64,000 nucleotides of DNA, taken from NCBI RefSeq assembly GCF_025642975.1, contig NZ_JANZKJ010000014.1, positions 62,001-126,000 on the forward strand, written 5' to 3'. The translations under genes and the position numbers were made by a program. The notes under the pieces are model-generated. The model was not told the DNA's origin. It made no database searches and saw only the letters and a program-made list of their open reading frames with translations. Below, piece by piece: positions 37,243 through 46,905 of this stretch. The stretch's first letter is position 1. Every line of letters begins with the position of its first letter. This DNA comes from Pseudomonas sp. RIT-PI-S (GTDB lineage: Bacteria; Pseudomonadota; Gammaproteobacteria; Pseudomonadales; Pseudomonadaceae).

Positions 37243-39525
37243 TTATCGTCGCTTATCCTCGAACAACGCCTCGGCTCCCGCCGTGCGCGCCAAGGCACCC
37301 GGCTGCGCTGGTTTGCCGGAGGTACGCTCCACGTACCAATGCACTTCCCGCGCCGCACGGGTAATGCCCACATAGGCCAGCCGCAGGGCTTCGTCCGCCT
37401 GGGCACGGTCGTAGGCATCGGCGCCTGAATAACCGGTGCTTTCGGCAAGTGCATACAGCCGGTTACGTGCGCTTGAAGCAGGGCGGGCAACACAGTCACC
37501 GATCAATATCACAACATCCGCCTCCAACCCCTTTGCACCATGAATGGTCATGCAGCGCAGCCGGCGCTGTTCCGCCGGCAACCGGGCCTGGTGTTCGAAC
37601 AGCTCCGCCACCGGCGCCAGTTGTCGCGGATCATCCTTGGCCTGGCGATAGAGCATCAATACGGCGAGCCCGGCTCCGAGACTTTCCTGGGCAACCTGGG
37701 CGATAAGTGCCGGGTCTTTCCAACGAAGTTGTATTTTCTTCGGTTGGGTTGTAGCAGTGATTATCCCAGCGGCCAGCGCTTTCTTCCCCGGGATGGATTG
37801 AGTCGAGCGAACGATATATTCCGCGCCATCAATGATTTGCTGCGTGCTTCTGAAGTTTTCCTTCAACAGTAAGCGTTGATGTTTGGGTGAGGGAAATGCT
37901 TGTGCGAAGTGCATGAAGAACGCTGGAGAACTTCCGCGCCAGCCATAAATGGATTGCCAGTCGTCGCCTACGCACATAAAGCTGGCCGGCGTGGAGGCGT
38001 CGCGCCGAAGACGTTCGGCCAAGCCGGCGCGCAGCCAGCGTGCGATCTGCGGCGAAATGTCCTGGAATTCATCGACCAGCAGATGGCGAATCGCAGTGAG
38101 CTTGGCATCAGGCAAACGCTTCAAGGCCCCACCATGGGGATCGCTAAAGATCGCGAACATCCGGTTATAGCTGAGCACCGGCGGCGCCAGCGCCAAGAGC
38201 TGCCGCTCTAACGCCGGCCAATAACGCCCCAGGGCCTGGAAAAACACGCCGTCTTCGCTGTCCGCGAGCGTGGCGGCGGCCGTTGGTACCTCAAGGCCCA
38301 GATTCTCGATAAAGCTGGCCGTGGCCACGAAGGCATCCAGTAACGGCTGGGGGCCGGCCTCTCCAGCCAAGGCGTAGTCCAACCCGGGGCCCTGCATCTC
38401 AGGGCCGGCGCTGAGCATGCGGATGCTGTCGAACGAATCAAGCCAGATCAGTGGCTTATCGAAGAAAGCTTGGAACAACGTGCGCTTGACGGCCCATTCG
38501 GCCCTTACCGGCAGCTTGGCGCCAGGTCGTGCCAACTCCCCCAAGGAAGGGTCGGCCCCCAGAACGACCCATGCGCCCGTGGATTCCAACCGACCGTGGC
38601 AACGAAACACCTGCCCGCCGACCCGGTGTTCGCTGCAGTGCTCGACAACCCCAGGCAAGGGCCAGTGCCCAGCCTGGCGCCAATGCTGTGCGATCAACTC
38701 GCATAGGGCCGCGTCTCGCTGCGCCGCGGGCACCAGCGCGGCCATTCGCCGCTGCACCTCGGGGTGGCCCTCTGGTAAAGGAGGCAACTGGCTCGCTCGC
38801 ACCCTCAGCGCCTGCATCACAGTGGCGAACTCAGGATCACTGGCCAGCAGCGCCTGATAACAGTGGTTCAACTGCTGGCGCTGGCCTTCGTTGATGCGCA
38901 GTTGAAACGGGTTGGCACCGCCTTCGCCGGCCCCGAGGCTTTCGAACGCCTGCAATTGGACAAACCCGGGCAAGGTTCGCGCCCAAGTGAGGACGGTGGC
39001 GTGGAAGGTGGTTACCCGGGCCCGCGCCTGGCTTAGCGTCAGCGGCTGCCCCCAGAGCGCGAAGAGGCGCACCAGCCGCTCGGCAAAATCAGCCCGGGAA
39101 GCTCGGGTAAAGGTCACCACGCTGATGTCTTCGAGCGGCACCCCCAGGTACTGGGTCAGCACAACGATGCGCAATACCAGCGAACTGGATTTCCCCGAGC
39201 CCGCGCCAGCGACCACACAAGTGCTGATGGCGTTGCCAAGAATCAGCTTCCATTGCCCCGGCGACGGCTGTGCATGCGCCGGAAGCAGGCGGGCGACGTC
39301 CGCCCTGATCCGCTTGCGCAGGGCCGGGGTGATCGCCAAGGGCAGGTCCGCGAAGAGGCTTTCGCCTGCCGCCGGCGAGGCGGCCTCAATAGCCTTCGCC
39401 GGGCGCGGCTGCCGAGCCTTGCGCGGAGTCGCCCGGGCGCGTTTAGGCTTGGCAGGAGGTTGGGCTCGCCCGGGCCAGCAGCGCTGAAGCAGCCGAACCC
39501 AAAGTTGATGTAGTTTCGAGATCAC
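37243..39525 (-). CDS. UvrD/Rep-family DNA helicase
   Basis: This 760-residue superfamily 1 helicase shows all main motifs: Walker A GAGSGKSS (about residues 107-114), motif Ia VVTFTRAS, Walker B LLVDEFQDIS, motif III VGDDWQSIYGWRGS, motif IV FRSTQQII, motif V MTIHGAKGLEADVV and motif VI RLAYVGITRAAREVH. The first 50 residues are very basic and proline-rich, an unusual leader. It is not UvrD, Rep or PcrA itself, judging by the long N-terminus and divergent insert of about 200 residues between motifs Ia and II. Start GTG 39525 has a weak ribosome-binding site. The role is unknown; DNA repair or defence are both possible. Confidence 0.85.
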   Translation of the reverse strand: MISKLHQLWVRLLQRCWPGRAQPPAKPKRARATPRKARQPRPAKAIEAASPAAGESLFADLPLAITPALRKRIRADVARLLPAHAQPSPGQWKLILGNAISTCVVAGAGSGKSSSLVLRIVVLTQYLGVPLEDISVVTFTRASRADFAERLVRLFALWGQPLTLSQARARVTTFHATVLTWARTLPGFVQLQAFESLGAGEGGANPFQLRINEGQRQQLNHCYQALLASDPEFATVMQALRVRASQLPPLPEGHPEVQRRMAALVPAAQRDAALCELIAQHWRQAGHWPLPGVVEHCSEHRVGGQVFRCHGRLESTGAWVVLGADPSLGELARPGAKLPVRAEWAVKRTLFQAFFDKPLIWLDSFDSIRMLSAGPEMQGPGLDYALAGEAGPQPLLDAFVATASFIENLGLEVPTAAATLADSEDGVFFQALGRYWPALERQLLALAPPVLSYNRMFAIFSDPHGGALKRLPDAKLTAIRHLLVDEFQDISPQIARWLRAGLAERLRRDASTPASFMCVGDDWQSIYGWRGSSPAFFMHFAQAFPSPKHQRLLLKENFRSTQQIIDGAEYIVRSTQSIPGKKALAAGIITATTQPKKIQLRWKDPALIAQVAQESLGAGLAVLMLYRQAKDDPRQLAPVAELFEHQARLPAEQRRLRCMTIHGAKGLEADVVILIGDCVARPASSARNRLYALAESTGYSGADAYDRAQADEALRLAYVGITRAAREVHWYVERTSGKPAQPGALARTAGAEALFEDKRR

Positions 39526-41369: not shown

Positions 41370-43646
41370 TCATCCCGCCACTGGCTCGGCTGCCGGCCAC
41401 CAGCCAGGCAGCAGGCGCTGCACCTGAGGCTGAGCGTAGCGGTCGTCGATCAGCACGATGGTGCCCTGATCGGCCTCATGGCGGATCACCCTCCCCGCCG
41501 CCTGCACTACCTTGTGCAACCCGGGAAACAGGTAGACGTAGTCATGCCCGCTGCCAAAGCGCGCCTGCATGCGCCGCTTGAAGTTTTCGTTGACCGGGTT
41601 GACCTGGGCCATGCCCAGCGTGGCCACGAACGCGCCGATCAGCCGTGCGCCGGGCAAGTCGATGCCTTCGCCGAAGGCACCGCCAAGCACCGCAAAACCG
41701 ATGCCGCAACCGTCGGCCGTGAAACCATCGATGAACGCCTGCCGTTCGCCTTCATCCATGGCGCGGCGCTGGCAGCGCAGCGGCACCTCGGGACAGCTGG
41801 CGGCCAGGCGCTCGGCCACCTGCCCCAGGTAATCGAAACTGCTGAAGAACGCCAGGTAGTTGCCTGGGCGGCGCTGATACTGCTCGGCGATGATCCGCGC
41901 CACGCTCGCCAGGGATTGTTGGCGGTCGGCATAGCGGGTCGACACCTGCGCCGCCAGGCGCACATGCAGCTGGCTGGCCCGGAACGGCGACGGTACGTCC
42001 AGCCAGGCCCAGCCGTCCGGCAGGCCCAGCAGGTCAGCGAAGTAATGCGCAGGGCTCAGGGTGGCGGAGAACAGCACGCAGCTGCGGGCGCTCTTGAAGC
42101 GCGGCGTCAACAATGGCGCGGGGACCACATTGCGCAGGTTCAGCCGTGCGCGCAGGCCGCGCCGGGCCGGGTAGACCTCCAGGTCGAACACGAAGGCATC
42201 GCTGAACAGCTCCGCCACCCGGGTGAACTGCAGCGCCTGGAAGTAGAAGTCCAGCCACTGCGGCGCAACCGCCGCGGGGTCCTGGTTCAGTTGATCGCTG
42301 ACAATGCTCATGCAGCGCTGCAAGGCAGCCAGCCACTGGGCCGGCAACCCCGGTTGGCTGTGGTAACCCTCGCCCTGGGCCTTGGCCAGGGCGCTCCAGT
42401 GCCGGCCGAGGGTGCGCAAGGCATTGCTCGCCCCGGCCAACGGCGCCTCGCGCAAGGTCGCCAGCAACCGTTGATCGAGGCTGGCGCTGTACATCCCACG
42501 GGCGCGCTCGACCAGGTTGTGCGCTTCGTCCACCAACACCGCGAACCGCCACTCCTGCGCCTGCGCCAGCGCGAACAGCCAGCCACTGAGGTCGAAGTAA
42601 TAGTTGTAGTCGCCAATGATCACATCGGCCCAGCGGGCCATTTCCTGGCTCAGGTAGTAGGGGCACACCTGATGGGCCAGGGCCAGTTCGCGCAGGGCAG
42701 CGCGGTCCAGCCAGCCCCGCTCTGCCGCTGCCACCCGGGCGGCCGGCAGCCGATCGTAGAAGCCACGCGCCAGCGGGCAGGCATCGCCGTGGCAGGCGGT
42801 GCCCGGGTACTCGCAGGCCTTTTCACGGGCGGTGAGCTCAAGCACCCGCAGCGGCTGCGGCTCGCCCTGCACCGGCTCCGGCTGCAGCTGCTGCAAGGCG
42901 TCCAGCGCCAACCGCCGCCCGGGGGTCTTGGCGGTGAGGAACAGAATGCGTTGCAACTGTTGCCGTGGCATCGCCTTGAGCAGCGGGAACAGCGTACCGA
43001 GGGTTTTGCCGATGCCGGTAGGGGCCTGCGCCAGCACAGCGCGGCCCATGCTGGCGGCCTTATAGACGGTTTCGGCCAATTGCCGTTGGCCGGGTCGCAT
43101 CGCCTCGTGGGGGAAGGCCAGGGCCTGCAAGAAGCCATCCCGCCGCTGCAGGTGCGCGCGCTCGCGGGCCGCCCAGTCGAGGAACGCCTCGCACTGGGCG
43201 TGGAAGAACGCCTGCAAGGCGTCGGCGCCGTGGTCGGCCTCGAAGCGTGTTTCGCTCTCGCTGTCCACGTTCCAATATACCAGCGCCACCTTGACTCGCG
43301 GCAACCCCTGCTCCTCACACAGCAAGCTGGCATACACCTTGGCCTGGGCCCAGTGCAGGGCGCGCTGGTTGGCCGGCTGCCGCTTGAGGTCGCCGCGATG
43401 GGTTTTCACCTCTTCCAGGCACTGGCGCTCAGGGTCGAAGCCGTCTGCACGGCCGCGCACCTGCAACCCTTTGTGCTCCCCGGCCAGGCTGATTTCCCGC
43501 CGATAGGTTGGGCCACGCCGGTCGCTGACCTTGCGGTGCCCGGCCATGCCTTCCAGCGCGCTGGGCGACGGCGTGAAGCGCAAATCCAGGTCGCCCTCGC
43601 GCGCGGTGAACTCGCACAGGGCCCGCACCGCGACGGTCAGCGTCAT
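41370..43646 (-). CDS. PD-(D/E)XK nuclease fused to XPD/DinG-type helicase
   Basis: This 758-residue protein has an N-terminal domain (about 60-135) with a Cas4/RecB-like nuclease pattern: GRADGFD (Asp 69 or 71), EEVK (Glu79, Lys81) and QAKVYA (Gln101, Tyr105). A superfamily 2 helicase of XPD/DinG type follows: Walker A APTGIGKT (208-215), four cysteines at 278, 285, 290 and 328 that should hold a 4Fe-4S cluster, DEAH at 373-376, SATLSP, and a C-terminal GRVIRHEADQG arginine motif. It overlaps the FAN1 gene by 4 bp (ATGA), so both proteins are made together. The ATG at 43646 was set by that overlap; longer frames run through FAN1. A role in unwinding and trimming damaged DNA is inferred. Confidence 0.85.
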   Translation of the reverse strand: MTLTVAVRALCEFTAREGDLDLRFTPSPSALEGMAGHRKVSDRRGPTYRREISLAGEHKGLQVRGRADGFDPERQCLEEVKTHRGDLKRQPANQRALHWAQAKVYASLLCEEQGLPRVKVALVYWNVDSESETRFEADHGADALQAFFHAQCEAFLDWAARERAHLQRRDGFLQALAFPHEAMRPGQRQLAETVYKAASMGRAVLAQAPTGIGKTLGTLFPLLKAMPRQQLQRILFLTAKTPGRRLALDALQQLQPEPVQGEPQPLRVLELTAREKACEYPGTACHGDACPLARGFYDRLPAARVAAAERGWLDRAALRELALAHQVCPYYLSQEMARWADVIIGDYNYYFDLSGWLFALAQAQEWRFAVLVDEAHNLVERARGMYSASLDQRLLATLREAPLAGASNALRTLGRHWSALAKAQGEGYHSQPGLPAQWLAALQRCMSIVSDQLNQDPAAVAPQWLDFYFQALQFTRVAELFSDAFVFDLEVYPARRGLRARLNLRNVVPAPLLTPRFKSARSCVLFSATLSPAHYFADLLGLPDGWAWLDVPSPFRASQLHVRLAAQVSTRYADRQQSLASVARIIAEQYQRRPGNYLAFFSSFDYLGQVAERLAASCPEVPLRCQRRAMDEGERQAFIDGFTADGCGIGFAVLGGAFGEGIDLPGARLIGAFVATLGMAQVNPVNENFKRRMQARFGSGHDYVYLFPGLHKVVQAAGRVIRHEADQGTIVLIDDRYAQPQVQRLLPGWWPAAEPVAG

Positions 43647-45295
43647 GCCGGCTGCGCGCTCGTGGCCGGCACTTGCCAGCGAACGTGGCAAACGCTCACT
43701 GGCAGGCCGTGCGCCTGGCAGAACGCGATCCATCGCAGCTGGTTGTCTTGCAGGCGGTCCCCCGGCCCCTTGACCTCGATCATCTGATAGCCAGCGGTGG
43801 CGGGGAAGAACTGGATCAGGTCTGGCATGCCGGCACGGTTGGCTTTCACGTCCTGCAACAGGCGTTCGAAGCACAGCCGTAGGTGCTCCGCCGGAATGCA
43901 CGCCAAGGCCAGCCGCAGCAGCGGCTCGTCGACCGCCCCCCAGTGCACGAACGGGTTGGCGAGGCCGAACTTGCTGGCGAAACGGTCGAGGATAGTGGCC
44001 CGGTAGGCATCGCTGTGCAGTTGTGCCAGGCAAGCGGCCAGTTCGGCCTCGCGCCGTTGGGCGAAATCCGCTTGATGCAAATCCAGCGGGGCCGCCTGGA
44101 AAGGGTGGAAGAAGGCGCCCGGCACGGGGGCGAATAACGCCGGCCAGCAGAGCAAGCCGAACAAGGCGTTGAACAGGGTATTTTCCACGTACATCACCGG
44201 GGCCTGCTCGGCGTTCAAGGCTTCGCACACCGCCCGTTCCACGCTGCGCTGGGGCGGCAGGCAGAGGTCCAGGCGAACCACGGCCTGGCTGGCCCGCCGG
44301 ACCCGCACCTTGTCTCCCAGCGCGCGGCGCAGCCTCGGTAACAACCGCTCCAGGCCCTGCGCTTCGGCAGCGTTCTCCGGGGCCTGGCTGGCCTGCTCGG
44401 CCAAGGCCATCGCTTCGCCGAAGCGTTCGCTGCGCTCCAGCATGCGCAAACGGCGCAAGCGGGCGCCCGGCCAGCGGCAATCGGCATAGAGGTTGGCGGC
44501 CTGGGGCCAGTCTCCACTGCGCTCGCAGCGCTGCGCCAGGCGGAACAGTGTCTTCTGCCGGCGGCTAGCCAGCCATGGGTTGTCCGACACCAGGGCAGTG
44601 AGCGCCTGCAACAGCACGGCGGTATCCGCGCCCTCCTCCAAGGCCTGGGCGCACTCGGCCAGGCCGAGCGCTACGTCGAGATCCTGGCGGTGGCGGAACG
44701 CCCGGGAATGCGGCGCGAAGTCCACGCTTTCGAACCGCTGGATGCCCAATTCCACCACCACGAACTGCGACCAGTCCTGGCGCAGGTTGCCGAAAAACAG
44801 CAAGCGCAGCCGCTCGCACAAAGGGCGTACCGCCAGCTGCCACACCGCGTCCTCATGCCCAGGCCACCACTCGCTCAGCGGCGCGATGCGCCCATGCAGG
44901 GGCGCCAATGCCTCGAACCATTCGCCTTTACGGGCGGTCGCCGGCAGCGCGTGCTCGGCGAAGCCTTGGCGCAGTTCAGCCTTGCCGAACAACGTGAACA
45001 GGTCGGCCAGGCTCAGGGCGGCGTCGGCCACCAGCCAACCCCGGCTCAGCAGCGGCGCAGCAGCCTGGCTGGCATCGCCGATTTCCTCATAAGCGAGCTT
45101 GCCGCGGCGAAAGTGCGCGCCCTTGCGCATCACCAACCGCACCAGCAGGGCCCGCGCGCCTTGGGGCAGGTGCGCGAACCCCTCGATGAACTCCCGCTCG
45201 GCCGCATCGAGCACATCGTCGTAGCGCAGGCGCAGCCAAGCCAGCGCCTGTTCGAAGTTGCTCAGGTAATAAAAGGGGTTGTCGAGGGCGTTCAC
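43643..45295 (-). CDS. fan1: FAN1-type VRR-NUC structure-specific nuclease
   Basis: This 550-residue homologue of the Fanconi-associated nuclease FAN1 has its catalytic VRR-NUC domain at the C-terminus, with MPDLIQF (Asp492), IEVKG (Glu507, Lys509) and the following DNQLRW; the spacing of these residues equals that in the known P. aeruginosa enzyme. FAN1 cuts 5' flaps and unhooks interstrand crosslinks. The GTG at 45295 (VNALDNPFYYLSNFEQ) is preferred to a TTG 60 bp upstream because related proteins begin with this helix. Its ribosome-binding site is weak, so the start is uncertain. The helicase-nuclease gene follows with a 4-bp overlap. Confidence 0.9.
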   Translation of the reverse strand: MNALDNPFYYLSNFEQALAWLRLRYDDVLDAAEREFIEGFAHLPQGARALLVRLVMRKGAHFRRGKLAYEEIGDASQAAAPLLSRGWLVADAALSLADLFTLFGKAELRQGFAEHALPATARKGEWFEALAPLHGRIAPLSEWWPGHEDAVWQLAVRPLCERLRLLFFGNLRQDWSQFVVVELGIQRFESVDFAPHSRAFRHRQDLDVALGLAECAQALEEGADTAVLLQALTALVSDNPWLASRRQKTLFRLAQRCERSGDWPQAANLYADCRWPGARLRRLRMLERSERFGEAMALAEQASQAPENAAEAQGLERLLPRLRRALGDKVRVRRASQAVVRLDLCLPPQRSVERAVCEALNAEQAPVMYVENTLFNALFGLLCWPALFAPVPGAFFHPFQAAPLDLHQADFAQRREAELAACLAQLHSDAYRATILDRFASKFGLANPFVHWGAVDEPLLRLALACIPAEHLRLCFERLLQDVKANRAGMPDLIQFFPATAGYQMIEVKGPGDRLQDNQLRWIAFCQAHGLPVSVCHVRWQVPATSAQPA

Positions 45296-45444
45296 GCAGC
45301 AGAGGTCCAAGGTCGCCTGGCTGCTGGTTATACATACAGTTTTGGCAAGCTTCAACCGCGCACAGCCCAGCGGTCGGTAAAGGCGGTTTGAGCCCTACCC
45401 AGTGGGCCTGTTACCCTCGGCGTTTTGCCTTGCCGGATGCGCTT

Positions 45445-46107: not shown

Positions 46108-46164
46108 CCACACCTAATCCGGCCGTTCGCAGGCTTCGCCAGAAGCCTACACGCCAGGGCCATA

Positions 46165-46299
46165 GGGGGAATGCGGGCGCAAGCCCGCGAACCAGCGGCG
46201 CCAGGCCGTAGGGGGAATGCGGGCGCAAGCCCGCGAACCAGCGGCGCCAGGCCGTAGGGGGAATGCGGGCGCAAGCCCGCGAACCAGCGGCGCCAGGCC
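46165..46299. repeat. Three 46-bp tandem repeats
   Basis: Three units begin at 46165, 46211 and 46257, an exact 46-bp period. Each contains GGGGGAATGCGGGCGCAAGC, then CCGCGAACCAGCGGCGCCAG. GCGGGCGCAAGCCCGC is a hairpin of the REP type. The stretch 46108-46164 before it holds a further short hairpin (TTCGCAGGCTTCGCCAGAAG). The next block repeats the same REP core within longer units. Confidence 0.85.
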
Positions 46300-46905
46300 G
46301 TAGCAGCTGGGCTCGCCCGCGATCATACGCAGCTCCGCGTAACACCCGTCGCCGGCAAGCCGTGCTGCTGCGCGTTGGAGCGTGCGGGCAACCAAAGAAC
46401 CTCCCACAGAAATCCTGCCCGCCCCTGTGGGAGGCGGGCACAAGCCCGCGAACCAGCGGCGCCAAGGCCGTAGCAGCCGGGCTCGCCCGCGATCGGGCAG
46501 GTCCGCGTAACACCGTCGCCGGCAAGCCGTGCTGCTGCGCGTTGGAGCGTGCGGGCAACCAAAGAACCTTCCACAGAAGTCCTGCCTGCCCCTGTGGGAG
46601 GCGGGCGCAAGCCCGCGAACCAGCGGCGCCAGGGCCGTAGCAGCCGGCCTTGTCCGCGATCTTACGCAGCTCCGCATAACACCCGTCGCCGACAAACCGT
46701 GCTGCTACGGGTTAGCGCTTGCGGGCAACCAAAGAATCTCCCGCAGAAGTCCTGCCCGCCCCTGTGGGAGGCGGGCGCAAGCCCGCGAACCAGCGGCGCC
46801 AGGGCCGTAGCAGCTGGGCTTGCCCGCGATCATACGCAGCTCCGCGCAACACCCGTCGCCGGCAAGCCGTGCTGCTGCGCGTTGGAGCGTGCGGGCAATC
46901 ATGGA
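46300..46905. repeat. Four-copy ~168-bp tandem repeat with palindromic cores
   Basis: Units start at GTAGCAGC in 46300, 46470, 46637 and 46807 (spacing 170, 167 and 170 bp). Each has a 72-bp palindromic part beginning GTAGCAGC(C/T)GG and closing GTGCTGCT, followed by GCGGGCAA(C/T)CA and, except in the last, a Pseudomonas REP core GGCGGGC(G/A)CAAGCCCGCGAA. The third unit (46637-46708) has perfect GTAGCAGC/GCTGCTAC ends. It fills the gap between the phosphatase and eutC, both of which end toward it. Many short open frames here are repeat artefacts. Confidence 0.85.

Follow-up and report, generated by a model that had tools for sequence, protein, structure and literature searches.

A 64,000-nucleotide stretch of Pseudomonas sp. 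RIT-PI-S (contig NZ_JANZKJ010000014.1, positions 62,001 to 126,000; hereafter the window) carries two overlapping genes on its minus strand, on which all features of the pair and its upstream region given below also lie, and we read these genes as a probable LexA-controlled (SOS) DNA-repair operon. The upstream gene, fan1 (43643..45295), starts with a GTG at 45295 and encodes a 550-amino-acid FAN1/VRR-NUC nuclease, assigned from Pfam and from matches to structures of the Pseudomonas aeruginosa protein PaFAN1. It is followed by an endoDinG-type gene (41370..43646, ATG at 43646), whose 758-amino-acid product joins an N-terminal PD-(D/E)XK nuclease to an XPD/DinG-type iron-sulfur helicase. By direct reading, the fan1 stop and the helicase start share an ATGA (43643..43646), as the coordinates and 4-bp overlap in a preliminary description of this DNA had it; the same description held that the proteins are made in fixed ratio, a claim that goes too far, as the ATGA suggests translational coupling of fan1 and the helicase and not a ratio. 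A TTG at 45355, upstream of the GTG, is a possible alternative fan1 start, which we disfavor because the conserved LexA-type box described below would then fall within fan1. The parts of the operon belong to known families; what the present analysis adds is the near-fixed pairing of the two genes in the window's family, together with the conserved LexA-type box.

Judged by its domains, the first protein is a member of the FAN1 (KIAA1018) nuclease family, with HTH, SAP and C-terminal VRR-NUC domains and PD-(D/E)XK residues. FAN1_HTH (PF21315, E 1.3e-34; residues 8-88, 45032..45274), FANC_SAP (PF18081, E 6.4e-12; residues 93-143, 44867..45019) and VRR_NUC (PF08774; residues 429-540, 43676..44011) all scored above their Pfam cut-offs. 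The VRR-NUC domain contains the catalytic-type residues D492, E507 and K509, correctly named in the preliminary description as read in the translation, and across 57 distinct FAN1s the D and K are kept in every sequence and the E in 56 (the exception is locus L075). Residues 3-542 match the PaFAN1 structures (4r89/5y7g) with an E of about 1e-175. According to the passages on these enzymes, plain 5' flaps are cut by FAN1 and PaFAN1 (PMC9635880), and PaFAN1 is credited with guiding the unhooking of crosslinks, with reference to Gwon 2014 and Jin 2018 (PMC12796719); no in-cell function of a bacterial FAN1 was met in the open-access literature passages.

The helicase part of the second protein is equally well marked. 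Helicase_C_2 and DEAD_2 both exceed the Pfam cut-off, and residue conservation was evaluated in 70 helicases, comprising the window protein and 69 loci; this set leaves out L102 and L103, which are pieces of the gene in genome G196, L151, which is the same gene as L134, and eight genomes that carry the gene in the phylum of Finegoldia magna. The Walker A motif TGIGKT (residues 210-215, 43002..43019) has its K214 in 70/70 homologues, as has the DEAH box (residues 373-376, 42519..42530), and the iron-sulfur cysteines C278, C285, C290 and C328 (42663..42815) are kept in 70, 69, 70 and 70 of the 70, respectively. Pfam, structure matches, Walker A, DEAH and the four cysteines agree, bearing out the proposal of an iron-sulfur XPD-type helicase.

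Even at E values as high as 1, Pfam gave no match to residues 1-170 of the helicase, and the N-terminal nuclease domain (43137..43646) was delimited from an AlphaFold2 model and its fold matches. The model, built from an alignment of four sequences, has a mean predicted local distance difference test score (pLDDT) of 87.6, and its best structural match is residues 3-179 of PDB entry 9kqh (Z 18.1), followed by SSO0001 (13.8), Cas4 (8d3l; 12.9), MGME1 (12.6), LHK-Exo (11.7), EXO5 (10.8), lambda exonuclease (10.8) and RecE (10.3). H37 lies in the modelled helix 28-44, E51 in strand 49-58, D68 in strand 61-71, and E79 and K81 both in strand 76-83; these five residues, with Q101 and Y105, are invariant in 70/70 distinct homologues (43332..43538). 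The structure prediction thereby gives residues 1-170 a confident nuclease fold, that of a PD-(D/E)XK nuclease of the RecE/Cas4/MGME1 type. A model of the full-length helicase, from five sequences, reached a mean pLDDT of 66 and was set aside as poor.

The residues E79, K81, Q101 and Y105 had been named correctly from the sequence, under the label 'Cas4/RecB-like'. QxxxY is the motif of Cas4-type RecB-like nucleases. At the level of the fold the label holds, given the match to Cas4 and the presence of Q101 and Y105; the cysteine set of Cas4 is not conserved. Cas4 is described as holding an iron-sulfur cluster in its nuclease domain by four cysteines (abstract of PMC4176176), and identity with Cas4 was rejected, as the candidates C11, C76, C110 and C152 of residues 1-170 are V, L, S and L in the F. 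magna relative.

On sequence grounds, the helicase is an EndoDinG, and neither it nor FAN1 is a new kind of protein. EndoDinG is a named subgroup of DinG-like proteins with a Bdellovibrio bacteriovorus representative (Cheng 2025, PMC11981726 section 3.7), and as described in that section it shares with the window helicase an N-terminal PD-(D/E)XK domain with H, E, D, E and K residues, the DinG motor domains and a CCCC iron-sulfur site; that it acts as an endonuclease rather than an exonuclease is given there as unpublished data. A full-length relative has also been crystallized: PDB 9kqh, titled 'Crystal structure of Finegoldia magna DinG in complex with ssDNA and ADPNP' and released on 2025-12-03, matches the window helicase over its full length (E 1.9e-104). 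The earlier view that the working of this nuclease domain with the helicase is little described was therefore over-stated, the architecture being both named and crystallized. A gene of F. magna DSM 20470 encodes a protein 98% identical to the 9kqh chain; at the nuclease Asp site the gene reads GRADG and the chain GRAAG, so that the depositors seem to have replaced this Asp by Ala. No paper on 9kqh was found in the open-access literature, where no text names the entry and none of the 10 titles listed out of 128 concerns it.

We also considered a DinG of type IV CRISPR systems. The PADLOC model PDLC01439 (typeIV_DinG) scores 403 bits on the window helicase; however, the iron-sulfur cysteines of the window protein are conserved, whereas CasDinG carries a pseudo iron-sulfur site (PMC11981726 section 2), and no csf partner was present among the eight window proteins scanned (fan1, helicase, pgm, UvrD-like, HAD, eutB, eutC and a chemoreceptor). 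Given that score, automated defence annotation may mislabel EndoDinG genes.

Next, we determined how often the two genes occur together, using samples of 148 genomes of the window's family, 299 across its phylum and 249 of F. magna's phylum. Within the family, FAN1 was found in 118/148 genomes and the helicase in 116/148 (E <= 1e-60); both genes were present in 116 genomes, the helicase alone in none and FAN1 alone in two (G044 and G056, of one genus). The pair is adjacent and co-directional in 115 of the 116, with alignment gaps of -16 to 88 bp, the exception being G007. The 299-genome sample yielded FAN1 in 36 genomes (E <= 1e-10) and the helicase in 28 (E <= 1e-20); outside the family these numbers are 24 and 16, with both genes in 12 genomes, 11 of which have them linked (G388 is unlinked), and the helicase without FAN1 in four (G394, G347, G365 and G166). 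In F. magna's phylum, 23 of the 249 genomes match the F. magna DinG (E <= 1e-20), some only as pieces. The FAN1-EndoDinG partnership was met only in the window's phylum, of the two phyla sampled.

Some further copies were seen in passing. Two genomes hold a second FAN1 copy in two pieces, with a TAG within the match (G122:C1:4592529-4594135 and G138:C29:15806-17972), the latter then followed by a helicase fragment. As to carriage by phages, IMG/VR gave ten loci, three of which are close relatives at contig ends; in one IMG/VR contig (L245), phage-type genes lie just past the endoDinG gene, as if a prophage adjoins (translations read by eye).

The second line of evidence is the sequence upstream of fan1, where a motif scan located a LexA-type box, CTGTATGTATAACCAG, at 45324..45339, 28 bases before the GTG. 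The box is unique in the window at up to three mismatches (shuffles: mean 0.10, with at least one match in 9/100). By eye, a putative promoter, TTGAAG-17-TATAAC (45327..45355), places its second hexamer inside the box; a strict promoter scan called nothing at this site. Counting as a box any CTG-N10-CAG that agrees with the consensus at 10 or more of its 16 positions, 110 of the 118 family FAN1 genes have one upstream, at -89 to -34 from the aligned FAN1 start. By comparison, 50 mononucleotide shuffles of the 118 upstream regions gave a mean of 1.3 and at most 4, and a downstream-gene control gave 10 such boxes in 282,306 bases, counting both strands. Where the pair is unlinked (G007 and G388), FAN1 and the helicase each have their own box, with 11 to 14 matches, and no box was found upstream of FAN1 in the FAN1-only family genomes G044 and G056. 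Taken together, the LexA-type boxes make it likely that fan1-endoDinG is under DNA-damage control.

The same box type recurs in the window's own genome, where CTGTA-N8-CAG gave 69 matches compared to 27 for the reversed control, palindromes being counted on both strands. It precedes a recN-like gene and is doubled before a lexA-like gene (names from translations by eye); for these own-genome box loci, six of 36 were hand-picked as best-looking and 28 of the 69 matches were left out. Near-palindromic boxes were also noted at L140 and L137, one between umuD-like and SRAP-like genes and one before an unnamed short gene. Three genomes of family f3 (G192, G196 and G229; L269-L271) carry ATGGATnnATGAnCAG near the expected place upstream of FAN1, which is not a full box and may be a decayed or altered operator. 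The Firmicutes-type LexA box is GAAC-N4-GTTC, and none was found before EndoDinG in 15 of the 23 EndoDinG genomes of F. magna's phylum, a looser match at L162 being uncounted.

Published induction data can be related to the pair through genome G126, whose FAN1 is 93% identical to PaFAN1. There, the box CTGTATGCATGAACAG stands before FAN1 (locus L030), the helicase follows, and a secretin gene lies further downstream, as does PA1868, which we take to be a secretin gene. Because this FAN1 precedes the helicase, with the secretin gene downstream, PA1866 would be the helicase. In strain PAO1, ultraviolet-C (UV-C) light induced PA1865, which encodes PaFAN1, and PA1866; both are listed among 18 induced genes for which control by LexA-like repressors is not known, and ciprofloxacin also induced PA1865 (passages in PMC12796719). 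Direct LexA control is a candidate cause of the UV induction of PA1865 and PA1866, to which that 2026 study assigned none. In 2012, beta-proteobacterial 'Helicase c2' genes were reported to have putative LexA sites upstream (PMC3323433 section 7); that these genes are EndoDinG is a guess on our part.

Sequence comparison and prediction supply the protein identities, the intact catalytic-type residues, the overlap, the conserved pairing and the conserved boxes; flap cutting by PaFAN1 and the damage induction of PA1865 and PA1866 come from published work, and the order of events, the cooperation on one substrate and the type of lesion are inferred. Upon DNA damage, LexA, which presumably binds the box at 45324-45339, would leave it, and fan1 and the downstream endoDinG gene would be co-transcribed with their translation coupled. 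Next to a fork that has stalled or is crosslinked, EndoDinG would then be loaded on single-stranded DNA and would unwind from 5' to 3' if it follows the rest of its family, while its N-terminal RecE/Cas4/MGME1-type nuclease would trim or cut the displaced strand. Dna2 and AddAB likewise couple unwinding to cutting. FAN1 could cut the resulting 5' flaps both at the lesion and beyond it; this would unhook an interstrand crosslink, or another kind of block, and let recombination rebuild the fork. Crosslink unhooking is the special case of the repair operon that we favor, since PaFAN1 is cited for it. In the window's family, such an operon would provide FAN1 with a nearly constant partner and with a predicted regulatory control, the pairing would give EndoDinG a likely pathway, and the repair role is directly testable.

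Several observations weigh against the reading as an SOS repair operon. Six paired family genomes miss the strict box; five of them (G058, G066, G091, G099 and G113) have a box that is mismatched at one end and keeps 11-14 of the 16 matches, and in G085 the best site has only 10 of 16 consensus matches. Outside the family, the box was present at only four of the eight FAN1 loci examined (L062, L063, L069 and L074, with L064, L071, L072 and L073 lacking it), a count that leaves out the paired genomes G213, G221, G280 and G315. The helicase-only genomes are also uneven: a box is present in G394 and absent from G347 and G365, and the single 10-match site of G166 lies inside the gene. In the window's own genome, most of the 19 box loci are not beside a recognizable SOS gene, and recA is not among them. 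FAN1 occurs without EndoDinG in 12 of the 24 FAN1 genomes outside the family, and it was detected in none of the 23 genomes of F. magna's phylum that carry EndoDinG, by a search that, in its control, found a 27%-identical FAN1 and that more diverged FAN1s could escape. Since these 23 genomes have no detectable FAN1, EndoDinG does not need FAN1, and the conserved pairing expected from the preliminary description applies to the family, where 115/116 are linked, and is not universal. The genomes are, moreover, related, so that the counts are not independent events. Finally, PA1865 was repressed by hydrogen peroxide and is not known to be LexA-regulated, as stated in a passage of PMC12796719.

The alternative that fares best retains SOS induction and gives up specificity for crosslinks: FAN1 would serve as a flap endonuclease and EndoDinG in Dna2-like resection at stalled forks, gaps, R-loops or recombination intermediates in general. 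Neither UV-C nor ciprofloxacin is mainly a crosslinker, and both induce PA1865 in the study described above. The cutting of plain 5' flaps by FAN1 and PaFAN1, the existence of EndoDinG without FAN1, and the presence of RecE, MGME1 and EXO5 among the fold matches of the nuclease domain (SSO0001 and Cas4 rank higher by Z) fit this view too, while the citation of PaFAN1 for crosslink unhooking and the near-fixed partnership in the family, which suggests a shared substrate, argue against it; on balance we regard it as somewhat unlikely.

A further alternative, to which we give less weight and which we hold to be distinctly unlikely, is that the two genes share an operon only as both are SOS genes, and act independently on different lesions. 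The separate boxes of the unlinked genes in G007 and G388 would fit, as regulation and not contact may be what is selected, and each gene occurs alone in other lineages. However, 115 of the 116 family co-occurrences are adjacent, and the two family genomes without EndoDinG, G044 and G056, also lack the FAN1 box, although these belong to one genus and may represent one event. A defence module against phages or plasmids is highly improbable, and was rejected as a main explanation together with the type IV CRISPR reading, because the PADLOC typeIV_DinG match on the helicase is offset by a FAN1 without any PADLOC match, by a pair common in the family (116/148 genomes), by flanks that consist here of pgm, a HAD gene and eutBC, and by a LexA-type box that fits repair better.

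A second nuclease beside FAN1 also appears in another form. Eight distant FAN1s (L257, L258, L259 and L263-L267), from seven genomes of families f41, f44 and f8, all carry a C-terminal RNase_T (DnaQ-like) domain (8/8), three of these sequences show VRR-NUC and DEDDh-type motifs by eye, and no EndoDinG match was found in the seven genomes. A second nuclease may thus often accompany FAN1. A strict rule of this kind is opposed by five FAN1-only genomes (G209, G241, G350, G382 and G391), from which L255 and L256 encode proteins of about 546 and 516 amino acids; L255, the one of these two that was scanned, gave no RNase_T match. In a more ambitious version of the SOS repair operon, FAN1 and EndoDinG would form one physical, SOS-induced machine devoted to unhooking interstrand crosslinks, a two-gene functional counterpart of the eukaryotic FAN1/FANCJ-like branch, with the DnaQ-like fusion supplying the second nuclease in some lineages that lack EndoDinG; we consider this version doubtful, slightly more so than the general repair role.

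With regard to the surroundings of the pair, a UvrD-like helicase of 760 amino acids is encoded two genes downstream (37243-39525, minus strand), with many UvrD-family NCBIfam matches below cut-off and also matches to GajB models. Between the HAD gene and eutC lies a tandem repeat (46265-46898) with a period of 170 bp and 3.8 copies, accompanied by a 46-bp array (46152-46303).

Among known systems, PaFAN1 (P. aeruginosa PA1865; PDB 4r89, 4r8a, 5y7g, 5y7q and 5z6w) is the closest to one half of the pair, being a full-length homologue of the window FAN1 with the VRR-NUC D, E and K residues in common; the passages of PMC12796719 and PMC9635880 that treat it mention neither a partner helicase nor a LexA-type box. 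Human FAN1 belongs to the same nuclease family (8s5a, E 8e-24). That a VRR-NUC gene lies beside some helicase gene is not new, because it has been reported for other VRR-NUC proteins: those of the T1p21 subfamily are encoded upstream of helicases (Iyer 2006, cited in PMC9635880), and a cyanobacterial VRR-NUC gene shares its operon with a DEAD/DEAH helicase-like gene (PMC7464499). In these phage-type loci the VRR-NUC gene adjoins the helicase gene as in the window, but PMC9635880 separates the T1p21 subfamily from FAN1 and does not, in the passage, describe FAN1 with EndoDinG, and the cyanobacterial gene sits in a phage gene cluster, again with no FAN1-EndoDinG pair described in the passage (PMC7464499). 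The main text of the EndoDinG review does not contain the words FAN1, VRR or RecB (PMC11981726). We found no paper naming the pair in its title or the start of its abstract in the open-access literature, outside which most subscription papers lie, and make no claim that the fan1-endoDinG operon is unpublished.

For the other half of the pair, the DinG encoded in the F. magna genome is 32% identical to the window helicase over the full length and both domains; unlike the window, that genome has no FAN1 match. The kinship with FANCJ suggested in the preliminary description extends to membership of the same XPD helicase family (human FANCJ, 9ej9, E 1.6e-8), whereas orthology is unsupported, as 9kqh, archaeal XPD and human XPD all match better. 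FANCJ is without an N-terminal nuclease. A RecB-type nuclease and a helicase are joined in Dna2, AddAB, AdnAB and RecBCD, as in EndoDinG, and the modelled domain matches their nucleases with Z from 7.3 to 9.6, of which values below 8 are weak. Their helicases are of superfamily 1, and the XPD/DinG type is of superfamily 2.

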